In this document: positions 6,161 to 48,651 of the stretch, piece by piece
How the letters are laid out: each line of letters opens with the position of its first letter
Numbering within the stretch: the first letter of the stretch is position 1
Source: a virus
IMG/VR virus record: IMGVR_UViG_3300009636_000007
Coordinates: 1 to 54,391 of that record
DNA: 54,391 nt
Reading direction: 5' to 3' (one strand)
Position numbers and translations under genes: made by a program
The notes under the pieces: model-generated
The model's input: only the letters and a program-made list of their open reading frames with translations
Databases searched by the model: none
Told to the model about the DNA's origin: nothing

Positions 6161-8503
6161 TTATTGCCCCTGTGTCTGTTGAATCTGGACGGGTTTACCA
6201 CCCTGCAATGACCACGTTTGTCCGTTCTTAAACGTAGTGTGCACGCCTTCTTTCAAAAGACCGATGGGCGGTGCTTGCGCGGGTTGTCCTTGTGCTGGCT
6301 GCTTGCCACCGGATGTCAGCCCTTGCGGAATTTGAATGCCCATTCTTTGAAGCGTTTGCACACCCTCTGGTGTAATGAGGTTCGGGTACGCAGTTCCAAT
6401 GGTGTTGCTGTACTTACGACCGAGATTGTTCAGTCGGATTGACGCACTATTGCCCAACTGTTTCAACGCTCTTTCAATCTGGGCAGGAGAGGAGTTGTCG
6501 TCAAGCACAACATTCATGACCTTCAAATCAGACTCATGCTCCGCACGGTTTTGGTTCAAGAACGTCATGAACTCCTTGCGCACGGGCTCAAGAGACGTAA
6601 CGAATGCTGTATAATCGGGATCGTTCGCTGCGTTCTTCTCGATCCAGTTCAACGGTTTGTTGAGCAACGGTGACGGTGCGCCCGCGAGCAACTTAGCTCG
6701 CATGGTAGAAGTCGTATCCATCGCATCACCTGCGTGACCGAGAAACGTATTGAAGTTCACGAGTTGATCAGCATCCTTACCGCTGGCGAAGGAGTCAATG
6801 ACTTTAGACTTTGCTACGAGGGCCGCTGGAGAGTAATCGTTCGGGTTCTTACCAGCCGCCACAGCAGCATCATGCAGAACGTCGAAGAATCGCGTTCGCT
6901 GGTTGCCTCGGAAGCTGACAATGTCACCTATCCTGCTGAAGTCACCACCGAGAACGTTTTGGGCGGCGGAATACAGGTCGGCGTCCGTTTTGTCTTGTGT
7001 GGCTTTTGCTGTTTTGTCTTTTACATCCTGCTTGGTCTGGGCTACGTTGCCTTCCTGCTTTGCGTTGACATCAAGCAGTGCTTGTGCTGCGGCTTTTCGT
7101 GCCGGGGGTTCGGTGGGAGAAGCAACAATTGTTTCAGCTTGTGCCACGGTCAGTGGCTTGCCTGCATTGACAGCGGCGGACTTCGCCGTAACATGCTTCA
7201 GTTCCTCGCCATTGAGGAATTCTCCAACTTCGTCGGGCGACTTGCCCAACAGTTTGAAAATTTCTCCCGCTTGTCCAGAGTTTTGTAACTGTGAAAGCGC
7301 GTGCTCGGTCGTGTGTGTGTGTGCATTAGCAAGCGCGGTCACAGCATCTACAGACTGGCGGGTCAATGCTGGGTTGTCCCTGAATTTCTTGTTGAAATCG
7401 TTTTGGCTAAGCTGGTCTTTTTCATCGACGCCCAAGCCAACTTGCATCTGATGGACAAACTCATACGCGATGGTGGCGGCGTGCGCCTCTTTCTCATACT
7501 GTATAAACTTCGTTGAGTCAAGCGGCAGTGAATCGCCTGAGGCGGTTCTGAGGTTCCCTTGTTCGTCAAAGAGTTGAGCAATAGCTGGGTTGGTCTTCGC
7601 CAACTGGGTCAATGCGTCTTTATTGACGTTGACATTGCCAGACTTGACAAGGCTGTAAGTCGGCAAATGGTATTGCTGCCCGTTGGGCGCGGTGCGTGTC
7701 TCCCAACCATCCTGAACTGGGGAGAGCCCCAACTTCACAAGATCGCCGCGCTGTTCCACAGACTCGTGGGACATCTTGCGGTCACCTGTAGCGACAAGTT
7801 GTTCGCCAGTATCTTTCTCAGTCTGTGCAAGGCTGTCGATTGCGGGCTGGTAGATGTCTTTGCTCTTAGTATAAAAGTCTTCCTTACCTGACCAATTATC
7901 CGCGTGCAGTTTGTCAATCGCTTGTTGGTTACGGTACTCGTCCAACGTATTCTTCGTCGCCGCATACTGCCGCATCATCTGTTGGTCAGCCTGTTTCTGA
8001 GGGGCATTACGGAATGCCTCTTGCTGCTGTCCCTCAGCCTTGAATGCGCCGCCTGCCGCAGCAGCGACCTGTCCTGACCGACTGCCGTACTGTCCTTGCG
8101 GAACAGCCGCACCAGCAGCCCAGCCTTCCATCATGGAACTGATCGCGCCTGCCAAAATGTGTCCTGTCAAACTGACACGAGACGACGCAGGAACATCACG
8201 AGTCACGCCGTCTGGACCTGTCACAGTCCTCGGCTTGTCTGACCCTGATGCCATGCGGTTGACAATCCTGTCGTACCAACTTGCTTTGGGCGCAGCGGGG
8301 GCACTCGGCTGACCTGACGGCTGTTGAGCAGTCGGGGCAGTCTTCGCGGGCATGCTGCTGGCGTCAGGAGCCTGCTGTACGGGCGTCTGGCCTGCGGGGC
8401 GCGCTGGCATATTCGCTGCTGTACTTGTGTCGGCGGGTGCTGCCGCTTGCGGCAAAGGCATCGCTGGCGTCGATTGATTGGGGTCTTGTGTAGGTTCTGA
8501 CAT
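6161..8503 (-). CDS. large internal virion protein
   Basis: A 780-residue protein with good RBS (TTTAGGAGC) before ATG at 8503. Residues 1-80 are A/P/Q rich with low complexity; the rest is mostly helical, with charged and glutamine-rich heptad-like segments around 170-260 and 400-500. No enzyme motif is visible. Size, composition and position between a gp14-like small protein and two other giant proteins match the internal core or ejection proteins of T7-like and N4-like phages. The function is inferred from this arrangement. Confidence 0.6.
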   Translation of the reverse strand: MSEPTQDPNQSTPAMPLPQAAAPADTSTAANMPARPAGQTPVQQAPDASSMPAKTAPTAQQPSGQPSAPAAPKASWYDRIVNRMASGSDKPRTVTGPDGVTRDVPASSRVSLTGHILAGAISSMMEGWAAGAAVPQGQYGSRSGQVAAAAGGAFKAEGQQQEAFRNAPQKQADQQMMRQYAATKNTLDEYRNQQAIDKLHADNWSGKEDFYTKSKDIYQPAIDSLAQTEKDTGEQLVATGDRKMSHESVEQRGDLVKLGLSPVQDGWETRTAPNGQQYHLPTYSLVKSGNVNVNKDALTQLAKTNPAIAQLFDEQGNLRTASGDSLPLDSTKFIQYEKEAHAATIAYEFVHQMQVGLGVDEKDQLSQNDFNKKFRDNPALTRQSVDAVTALANAHTHTTEHALSQLQNSGQAGEIFKLLGKSPDEVGEFLNGEELKHVTAKSAAVNAGKPLTVAQAETIVASPTEPPARKAAAQALLDVNAKQEGNVAQTKQDVKDKTAKATQDKTDADLYSAAQNVLGGDFSRIGDIVSFRGNQRTRFFDVLHDAAVAAGKNPNDYSPAALVAKSKVIDSFASGKDADQLVNFNTFLGHAGDAMDTTSTMRAKLLAGAPSPLLNKPLNWIEKNAANDPDYTAFVTSLEPVRKEFMTFLNQNRAEHESDLKVMNVVLDDNSSPAQIERALKQLGNSASIRLNNLGRKYSNTIGTAYPNLITPEGVQTLQRMGIQIPQGLTSGGKQPAQGQPAQAPPIGLLKEGVHTTFKNGQTWSLQGGKPVQIQQTQGQ

Positions 8504-43286: not shown

Positions 43287-43315
43287 TTGACAACCTTGTT
43301 TCCATTTGGTACTAT
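43287..43315 (+). promoter_or_regulatory. sigma70-type promoter for the accessory segment
   Basis: TTGACA (43287-43292), 17-base spacer ending CATTTGG, TACTAT (43310-43315). Near-copy of the minus-strand promoter at 27-55. The expected transcription start is at or within two bases of the ATG at 43321, giving a leaderless or nearly leaderless message. Confidence 0.75.
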
Positions 43316-43768: not shown

Positions 43769-44215
43769 ATGGAAGACTTGAACAGGAAAAGAAAACGTCA
43801 GCGTGAGTGGGTTGCTAAGCGACGAAAGAATTGGTTTGCCGCTAATGGCCCTTGCAGGGGGTGCGGCTCTTCGGAGAACCTAGAGATGCATCACATTGAC
43901 CGCACTGAGAAGGAAGAACACAGAATCTTTTCTTGGTCTAAAGCAAGGCGGGAAGTAGAGCTGGTGAAGTGTGTCGTGCTTTTCTGTGCTCAATGTAAGT
44001 GCCTGAATGACAGTCCCAACTCGATGTCGCGAGCCGCTTGGGGAATCCAGGTTGCACTCTATGATCGGTGCGGCATATGCGCTAAACTTGCAGATCATAG
44101 CTGCTGTGCTCCCGAGAAAGATCATGTTGACTGTTCGGACGTGAATCCATTTTGGCGATGGAACGCTGTCTCGGCGTGCGGCGGAAATCCATCTTATCGG
44201 TCAGCAAGTTACTGA
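43769..44215 (+). CDS. HNH endonuclease
   Basis: A 148-residue protein. A basic N-terminal helix (RKRKRQREWVAKRRKNWFAA) is followed by CRGCGSSENLEMHHIDRTEK, the C-x2-C plus H-H (HH metal pair) of the HNH fold, then KARREVELVKCVVLFCAQC which supplies the second cysteine pair. Further cysteines (CGICAKL, SCCAPEKDH) extend it. The gene starts the accessory segment between the early promoter and the AAA+ gene. No strong RBS is seen. Different from the capsid-linked HNH protein; they share only the zinc framework. Confidence 0.75.
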   Translation: MEDLNRKRKRQREWVAKRRKNWFAANGPCRGCGSSENLEMHHIDRTEKEEHRIFSWSKARREVELVKCVVLFCAQCKCLNDSPNSMSRAAWGIQVALYDRCGICAKLADHSCCAPEKDHVDCSDVNPFWRWNAVSACGGNPSYRSASY

Positions 44216-44219
44216 ATTT

Positions 44220-45347
44220 ATGAGTACAGCCCGCCACATCCTCGCGCTACTCAAGAGCCACCTGGAAGGTGACGACAAGGAATTCTTGTCTGTTGCCATG
44301 CAAGCGGCGGCTCATGAAGCACGCCTCGGCCATGCCAGCGTTGCACAGCAGCTGCGCGATTTGATTGATGAAGCCAAACGCCGCACCGCTGCCGCCCACA
44401 CCCGTGGGGGACAAATAATCGTTCTGGAGCCGCGGGGAGAACTAGCGAGCCTGCTTTCGGTCCAAACGCCTCGCATCCGCCTGAACGATATGGTCCTGTC
44501 CGCCGCTCTTGCCGAGCGTCTTAGGCGCGTCCTCGTCGAGCAGCGCCAACAGAAGAAGTTGCGCGAACACGCTCTACATCCGCGCCGAAAACTCCTATTT
44601 GTCGGCCCGCCCGGTTCCGGGAAAACAATGACCGCCTCCGCTCTTGCCGGAGAATTGCACCTGCCCCTTTTCACCATCATGCTAGAAGGGCTAATTACGA
44701 AATTCATGGGAGAGACTGCGGCGAAACTCCGGCTCGTCTTCGACGCGCTCCGTCAGACCCAGGGTATCTATCTGTTCGACGAATTTGACGCTCTCGGCGC
44801 TCATCGTAATCAAGCGAATGACGTTGGCGAAATCCGCCGAGTTCTCAATTCGTTCTTGCAATTCCTTGAGAAAGACACATCTAACAGTTTGATCGTCGCC
44901 GCCACAAACCACCCAGAGATGCTTGACCGAGCCCTGTTCAGACGTTTCGACGATGTGATCGAGTACATGCTTCCCGATCCGGAGCTTGCCAAGGAGATAC
45001 TTAGTCGCAAATTAGCGCCTTTCGAAACGGCAGATCTTGACTGGTCACGGCTTCTCTCGGAGGTCAACGGTCTGAGCCAGGCGGAACTGGCCCGAGCGAG
45101 CGAAGAGGCCGCAAAGCAGGCCGTATTGGGTGGCTCGACTGTGATCAGTTCCGATGCTCTCTTCATGGCTCTACAGGAACGAAAGGCAGCGTTTGTCATA
45201 GCTGCCACCGTAAAGAAACAAATAAGCAGGTTGGTACGCGGAGACCTGTTAATCACATTCATGGCACACAGACAGAATACCGTCGTGGATGCAGGTGCGA
45301 ACCCTGCCGTACTGCAAAGTACGAAGCCATCAAACATGAGCGTATGA
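44220..45347 (+). CDS. AAA+ ATPase, host-cassette-like
   Basis: A 375-residue protein. N-terminal helical domain (HILALLKSHLEGDDKEFLSV, AAHEARLGHASVAQQLRDLI) is the type found on bacterial AAA ATPases encoded beside subtilisin-like (S8) proteases; then Walker A FVGPPGSGKT (residues 126-135), Walker B YLFDEFDALG, sensor 1 IVAATNHPE, arginine fingers LFRRFDDV, and a C-terminal helical lid. No S8 protease gene follows here, so it is an orphan. No RBS worth naming. The 3' end abuts the tmRNA gene and its last 20 codons overlap two small hairpins. Confidence 0.8.
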   Translation: MSTARHILALLKSHLEGDDKEFLSVAMQAAAHEARLGHASVAQQLRDLIDEAKRRTAAAHTRGGQIIVLEPRGELASLLSVQTPRIRLNDMVLSAALAERLRRVLVEQRQQKKLREHALHPRRKLLFVGPPGSGKTMTASALAGELHLPLFTIMLEGLITKFMGETAAKLRLVFDALRQTQGIYLFDEFDALGAHRNQANDVGEIRRVLNSFLQFLEKDTSNSLIVAATNHPEMLDRALFRRFDDVIEYMLPDPELAKEILSRKLAPFETADLDWSRLLSEVNGLSQAELARASEEAAKQAVLGGSTVISSDALFMALQERKAAFVIAATVKKQISRLVRGDLLITFMAHRQNTVVDAGANPAVLQSTKPSNMSV

Positions 45348-45667
45348 AGAAACAGGCGACGGTTGCGGACTCGGGTTCGAATCCCGACATCTCCACTGAG
45401 GGCACTATCTCAGTGTCCTGAGTGGGGATGAAAGGCGTTCGACGCAGCTGGTTTGTTTGTTTTCGACGTTCCGCACTGACGTGGCTGGCGTAAAATAGAC
45501 ACGTAAACCAATAAATGCTACGACTGAAAAGCCGAAGGCATTTGCTGCTACTGCCGGAAGGTAGTGAGTAGCTGGGGCGGTCAGAAGCCTAGCAACAGAA
45601 TATCTGACCACGGGCCGGGAATTCAGTACCGTCAATATCCGGTTTCCTGATAGACCGGCCCGTACAA
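45345..45667 (+). ncRNA. ssrA: circularly permuted (two-piece) tmRNA gene
   Basis: Acceptor half comes first: T-arm TCGGG-TTCGAAT-CCCGA (45371-45387), then CATCTCC and discriminator A (45388-45395). Coding half follows: GGGGATG (45424-45430) pairs with CATCTCC, giving G3-U70, the alanine identity pair. The insert between them (45396-45423) folds as a hairpin that extends the acceptor stem (CACT/AGTG, then AGGGCAC/GTGTCCT). P2 can form (CGCAG with TTGCG). PK1 shows ACGTG/CACGT around GGCTGGCGTAAAA, a tmRNA hallmark. Candidate tag ATTEKPKAFAATAGR (45517-45561) ends in tandem stops TAG TGA. GGTCAGA/TCTGACC and GGGCCGG/CCGGCCC close the 3' part. CCA is not encoded. Confidence 0.85.
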
Positions 45668-48260: not shown

Positions 48261-48472
48261 CCAAGCAGGAGATTGAGAACATTCGTGCCAAGATGCAGGA
48301 CGAACTCGACTCGTTGAAAGAGGCGACCGAGATGTGGCGCGCGGAAGCTCCCGGTCGGGACTTGCTGCATCCTTCGCACCCCGAGTTGACGGCGTACCTC
48401 TTGAAACAGTTAAAGATCGCCGACTCAAACTATGACCGTTTGTGTGAAGAGTTTGCAGAGGAGGAACTGTGA
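48257..48472 (+). CDS. small helical protein
   Basis: A 71-residue acidic, fully helical protein (MTKQEIENIRAKMQDEL, LTAYLLKQLKIADSNYDR). Start at 48257 chosen because it overlaps the previous stop and has GGAGG; the frame to 48245 is a few codons longer only. May bind a host protein as an acidic helical mimic; this is speculation. Confidence 0.55.
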   Translation: MTKQEIENIRAKMQDELDSLKEATEMWRAEAPGRDLLHPSHPELTAYLLKQLKIADSNYDRLCEEFAEEEL

Positions 48473-48651
48473 AAACACTTTTACTGCACGACTCTCTCAA
48501 CCCGGCCCGCATCGTCCCGATGGACCCCGCGGACTTCTCGATTGCTGTCCCGTACATGACAGGATCACTGGTGTACGCCAAGGGTAACGATCAACCTGTT
48601 ATGGTCCACGAGACCCCTGAAGATATTGCTATCATGCTGGAGGCGGAATGA
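48469..48651 (+). CDS. small hypothetical protein (GTG start)
   Basis: A 60-residue protein whose GTG overlaps the TGA of the gene before (GAGGAGGAACTGTGA). Sequence beta/alpha with DSLNPARIVPMDPADFSIAV and a C-terminal acidic helix (ETPEDIAIMLEAE). No family recognised. Confidence 0.55.
   Translation: MKTLLLHDSLNPARIVPMDPADFSIAVPYMTGSLVYAKGNDQPVMVHETPEDIAIMLEAE

Follow-up and report, generated by a model that had tools for sequence, protein, structure and literature searches.

The window, a 54,391-nucleotide stretch of viral DNA (IMG/VR record IMGVR_UViG_3300009636_000007, positions 1 to 54,391), comes from a soil phage and encodes a tmRNA, the RNA by which stalled ribosomes are freed, in a conserved gene of two-piece (circularly permuted) form. 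This gene is the sole one that ARAGORN calls in the window (45306-45655; tag ATTEKPKAFAATAGR followed by two stop codons). A search of the complete Rfam with the full window yielded, at curated cut-offs, a single match in the entire 54 kb, to tmRNA_permuted (RF04321) at 45338-45558, with 71.9 bits against a cut-off of 47 and E = 6e-12, which places the gene in that family by score. The RF04321 model merges the three permuted types known from bacteria, alpha, beta and cyano (RF01849, RF01850 and RF01851) (PMC11915505). Of these older subtypes, beta_tmRNA fits best (45295-45634 at a permissive threshold), its 69 bits being below its own cut-off of 84, and alpha_tmRNA and cyano_tmRNA gave no match in the window at gathering threshold. 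An earlier note on this DNA, made from the sequence alone, had proposed a permuted tmRNA at 45345-45667, to be checked with the alpha, beta and cyano models: RF04321 is above its cut-off while none of these three models is, and the extent shifts, with the start lying further upstream (45338 by RF04321, 45295 by beta_tmRNA) and the conserved 3' hairpin ending near 45609.

All parts of the gene lie on the plus strand, and the tRNA-like halves occur in the reverse order that had been read at these positions: the acceptor 3' half (45388-45394) is upstream of the 5' half (45424-45430), with a 29-base linker between them. In the RF04321 alignment, the distal 3' side of P2 (45338-45354) pairs through GAGCG (45338-45342) with CGTTC (45467-45471) and through AACA (45351-45354) with TGTT (45458-45461), and contains a GTATGAAG motif that occurs in many relatives. 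Downstream are the P2 3' strand GGTTGCG (45361-45367), aligned by the same model, which pairs with CGCAGCT (45443-45449) and covaries in 15 copies, the T-arm (45371-45387; stem TCGGG/CCCGA, loop TTCGAAT), and the acceptor 3' strand CATCTCC with A73 at 45395 and then CTG (45388-45398 in all). All seven acceptor pairs form with 45424-45430, including G3-U70, which with A73 makes the acceptor tRNA-Ala-like. At its 3' end the gene reads ACTG instead of ACCA; CCA is encoded in most relatives and is missing in L151 as well. The linker, or intervening sequence (45395-45423), forms a hairpin of GGGCACT (45400-45406) and AGTGTCC (45412-45418) that sits atop an extended CTCCAC/GTGGGG stem and prolongs the acceptor stem (fold z = -4.8), confirming the extended stem that the earlier note had described; by analogy, the linker would be absent from the mature RNA. 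The acceptor 5' strand GGGGATG (45424-45430) is where the coding piece is predicted to begin, from the RF04321 alignment and covariation. It is followed by a D-like region ending in TTCGA (45438-45442) and the P2 5' strand CGCAGCT (45443-45449), which together span 45431-45449 in the RF04321 alignment and are kept in relatives. A PK1-like stretch (45471-45509) with possible stems CGC/GCG and CGTG/CACG, recognized by eye from its position and sequence, is a putative pseudoknot. The tag reading frame called by ARAGORN (45517-45567) runs from resume codon GCT to the stops TAG TGA, and beyond it lies a 3' hairpin (45579-45609) with stem GGTCAGA/TCTGACC and a loop containing CCTAGCAACAGAA.

For covariation, the P2, T-arm, acceptor and linker segments of 15 diverged copies were cut at landmarks, joined and aligned. 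Over the acceptor, T-stem and P2, 93.3% of cells are paired and 17 of 21 pairs are changed on both sides, figures favoured by construction for the acceptor, whose pairing the landmarks demanded, and with which the T-stem and P2, free of such selection, agree. The covariation score is 0.718 for these stems, compared with 0.213 for shuffled and 0.06-0.19 for slid alignments. The T-stem is paired in every copy, with all five of its pairs changed on both sides, and G3-U70 is invariant (15/15), accompanied by A73 in the window and in all 15 copies. The window itself pairs at all acceptor, T-stem and P2 positions except the outermost P2 pairs. Including the linker stem gives a score of 0.660 versus 0.203; linker strands form 7.7 of 10 pairs within one sequence versus 4.5 of 10 between sequences, and a few copies (L150, for example) pair weakly there or not at all. 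The 3' hairpin has 4-8 pairs, differing stem sequences and an AACAGAA loop in 15/15 clade copies. Failure of covariation in related phages and the lack of a match to any tmRNA model had been named beforehand as evidence against the gene; the structure covaries across the 15 copies, and RF04321 matches above its cut-off.

Resume codons were picked by eye, and the tags were then translated by script. The window tag, ATTEKPKAFAATAGR with two stops, was compared with those of L148 (AETEKPRAFAAAAGR), L151 (ATPKRAFAAAAGR), L142 (AKTNVKAFAAHA), L143 (ATPKAKAFAAAA), L154 (AETKPLAFAAAA), L149 (ATTKPLAMAAAA), L152 (ANTNVLAMSAAAGA) and L155 (ANTNVKAMSASAGA), each with one stop. The frame is conserved as protein among the relatives, which argues for a translated tag, and its length varies from 12 residues in L153 to 27-35 residues in Tunturiibacter phage Tunturi_3 and four others. 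The window tag ends in AGR and not in a hydrophobic or Ala-Ala signal. AGR or AGA ends occur in part of the clade, AGR being shared by the window with L148 and L151 despite their divergence elsewhere; the tags of several relatives end in AAAA, LAA or LA. An Ala-Ala or hydrophobic end is usual in tmRNA tags, not obligatory, and tags vary between groups. Because the ClpX of E. coli recognises the terminal Ala-Ala of the tag, an AGR end may weaken degradation, and host proteases may differ.

A sister contig from another metagenome (IMGVR 3300037993_000105; L025) shares 99.9% identity with most of the window and has zero mismatches in the tmRNA across 700 bases compared, so the gene is not an assembly accident. 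The two contigs differ by a 1.2 kb segment (window 43983-45191), absent in the sister, which holds an AAA-ATPase gene and splits an HNH-endonuclease gene; near its position 8007, the sister has an unbroken HNH frame that extends into the tmRNA acceptor half. The tmRNA gene lies just downstream of this segment and is retained in the sister. The AAA-ATPase was rejected as a marker of related phages, because the sister has no such segment and tmRNA did not turn up with the other relatives of the ATPase. A second indel falls at window 48466-48485, where the sister is about 0.8 kb longer. The gene occupies a conserved genomic place: at 8 of 15 loci, a DNA polymerase gene is found upstream and a phosphoesterase gene downstream, at 6 more one of the two is found, and at L158 the sole shared neighbour found is an acetyltransferase gene, which in the window lies further downstream. 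No promoter-like site was found directly upstream of the tmRNA gene; one follows the DNA polymerase gene at 43287, in a window where such sites are no more numerous than expected by chance.

In the collection of annotated phages, the portal protein matches Tunturi_3 alone (60% identity over 97%), and Tunturi_3 is also the best match of the terminase (48%) and the DNA polymerase (38%). Tunturi_3 is a podovirus isolated on an acidobacterium, with a genome of 97.6 kb (Tunturi phage paper); given that length, the window is probably a fragment of a larger genome, and the kinship suggests a host in the Acidobacteriota. From IMG/VR, 80 portal relatives were fetched, and RF04321 was run on 45 records, mostly longer than 10 kb. 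It exceeded its cut-off in 18 of the 45, three of which (G049, G050 and G051) had been recruited by tmRNA pattern and not by portal. All nine portal-clade records above 80 kb, Tunturi_3 included, have a match; records lacking one are mostly short fragments, along with the 45 kb G013. In Tunturi_3, the match (88172-88396, minus strand) falls in a stretch with no annotated gene and is missed by ARAGORN. Tunturi_4 and Tunturi_5, of another morphotype, have unannotated matches of 79 and 86 bits, and Tunturi_1 and Tunturi_2, from the same host genus, have no RF04321 match. One-piece tmRNA (RF00023) matches in the Tunturi phages only below cut-off. A DNA similarity search against annotated phages gave no match for the window tmRNA and a match of only 32 bases for copy L139. 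The word tmRNA is absent from the text of the Tunturi phage paper, and our literature search found no papers on two-piece tmRNA in Acidobacteria.

Several related loci were seen alongside. The unannotated permuted tmRNAs of Tunturi_5 (L176, 157899-158195) and Tunturi_4 (L177, 43532-43941) have long tags (AKNSPVVRGTAKVLSFARKFVPAVSSTRAFAMAA and ANTVTSTIRNVASVRTGFFRSAEPITNRYAVAA). Tunturi_4 (PP885687 43946-44293, L183) and Tunturi_3 (PP885686 82469-82807) encode short RF-1 domain proteins containing GGQ, with only weak NCBIfam matches (RF1, PrfH and RF2), which are possibly a second ribosome-rescue factor; the Tunturi_4 gene lies directly upstream of the permuted tmRNA. Two larger phages (IMG/VR contigs L135 and L136, 197 and 131 kb) have a permuted tmRNA with a 29-residue tag ending in SFAV, and copy L141 from these phages scores 89.1 bits, above the beta_tmRNA cut-off. 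Viral contigs L028, L029, L038 and L043 have one-piece tmRNAs by ARAGORN, some with odd tags, e.g. GNSHRNIISLYNERKAA and AKNVIAYDFTPEGVEAEYAVA. A relative of this phage, tmRNA included, was binned in a MAG named Bacteroidetes (L054, PSRA01000113.1), which has SmpB and no standard tmRNA match above cut-off; we rejected this bin as unreliable host evidence, the Tunturi authors having dropped a similar link between a viral contig and a MAG.

We consider it very probable that the circularly permuted ssrA gene which the phage carries is functional, most likely giving a working two-piece tmRNA that relies on host SmpB, which is implied because neither the window nor any of the phage records searched yielded a phage SmpB. 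The transcript would fold like a tRNA into a precursor in which the acceptor stem runs on into the linker hairpin, and host tRNA-processing enzymes would excise the linker to leave two RNAs. The acceptor RNA would comprise the P2 3' strand, T-arm, acceptor 3' strand and A73, with CCA added afterwards, as it must be because the window encodes ACTG; the coding RNA would comprise 5' GGGG, the D-like loop, PK1, the tag and the 3' hairpin. Held together by the acceptor stem and P2, the pieces would be charged with alanine by AlaRS through G3-U70 and, with host SmpB, enter stalled ribosomes and put the tag frame in place of the broken mRNA. Release at the tandem stops would keep ribosomes available during infection, and the phage would thus have a ribosome rescue RNA of its own. 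Counted against a functional gene were the ACTG end, the AGR tag end, the missing promoter-like site directly upstream, the beta_tmRNA score below cut-off and the lack of the gene in Tunturi_1 and Tunturi_2.

The RNA might instead act on host trans-translation as a decoy or modifier, competing for SmpB and AlaRS and so inhibiting the host tmRNA, tagging being secondary. A precedent is mycobacteriophage DS6A, whose tmRNA retains only the tRNA-like domain, and tmRNA is strongly inhibited by a molecule of that sort (PMC4131195, PMC11915505); that the phages lack SmpB of their own also fits. DS6A has lost its tag, whereas the strongly diverged copies here preserve the tag frame, the resume region and the 3' hairpin, and because a pure decoy would need none of these, we regard it as improbable. 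ACTG in place of ACCA, together with the AGR end, could also mark the window copy as a decaying relic of the clade tmRNA that has lost its encoded CCA and whose tag end has drifted. We think this very improbable: in acceptor, T-stem and P2 only the outermost P2 pairs fail to form, the open tag closes with two stop codons, a second contig carries the identical gene, the otherwise diverged L148 and L151 share the AGR end, and L151 likewise encodes no CCA. T-arms are common to tRNA and the tRNA-like half is short on its own, features that a rearranged tRNA gene with no tmRNA function, or a chance resemblance, would share; the conserved tag speaks against both, chance is excluded by the RF04321 E-value, the independent ARAGORN call and the covariation in 15 homologues, and we give this explanation next to no weight.

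A functional permuted tmRNA gene has close counterparts. The window gene has the permuted order of bacterial permuted tmRNA and, like it, an acceptor stem with G3-U70, a T-arm, a TTCGAC D-like loop, P2, a resume region and a tag; it differs in lying on a phage and in the AGR or AGA tag end in part of its clade; beta_tmRNA is the best subtype, yet the window and other portal-clade copies score below its cut-off, and only L153 and L154 pass that of alpha_tmRNA. Methylophage Melnitz has a phage-borne two-piece tmRNA, one of a kind that makes up 53 of 133 unique phage tmRNAs (PMC9004378). Melnitz and the pelagimyophages likewise carry a complete permuted ssrA on a phage, with no evidence of lysogeny needed and host SmpB implied (PMC9004378). 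Melnitz and its relatives are T4-like myophages of marine origin whose gene is alpha-type, and 17 of 47 clustered contigs had it (PMC9004378), whereas the window clade is from soil and kin to an Acidobacteriota podovirus, with the gene in 9 of 9 records above 80 kb. Mycobacteriophage tmRNAs (Bxz1, Wildcat and others; tRNA-like domain only in DS6A) are also phage-borne ssrA, of phages of Actinobacteria, and are not listed as two-piece (PMC4131195).

Phage-borne permuted tmRNA is thus already known, mainly from aquatic phages (PMC9004378); new here are the phage lineage, the near-constancy of the gene in its clade, the unannotated copies in Tunturi_3, Tunturi_4 and Tunturi_5, and the AGR or AGA tag ends in part of the clade. 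As a speculative and rather unlikely extension, Acidobacteriota phages may keep a two-piece tmRNA lineage of their own, possibly foreign to the host in form, in which tags ending in AGR or AGA instead of AA would allow ribosome rescue without the usual degradation, the tagged proteins escaping the usual protease or reaching a different one. The altered tag ends pose the question of whether tagging by the phage still leads to degradation, and Tunturi_3, Tunturi_4 and Tunturi_5, growing on a cultured host, make it possible to study in the laboratory why phages retain a ribosome-rescue RNA.
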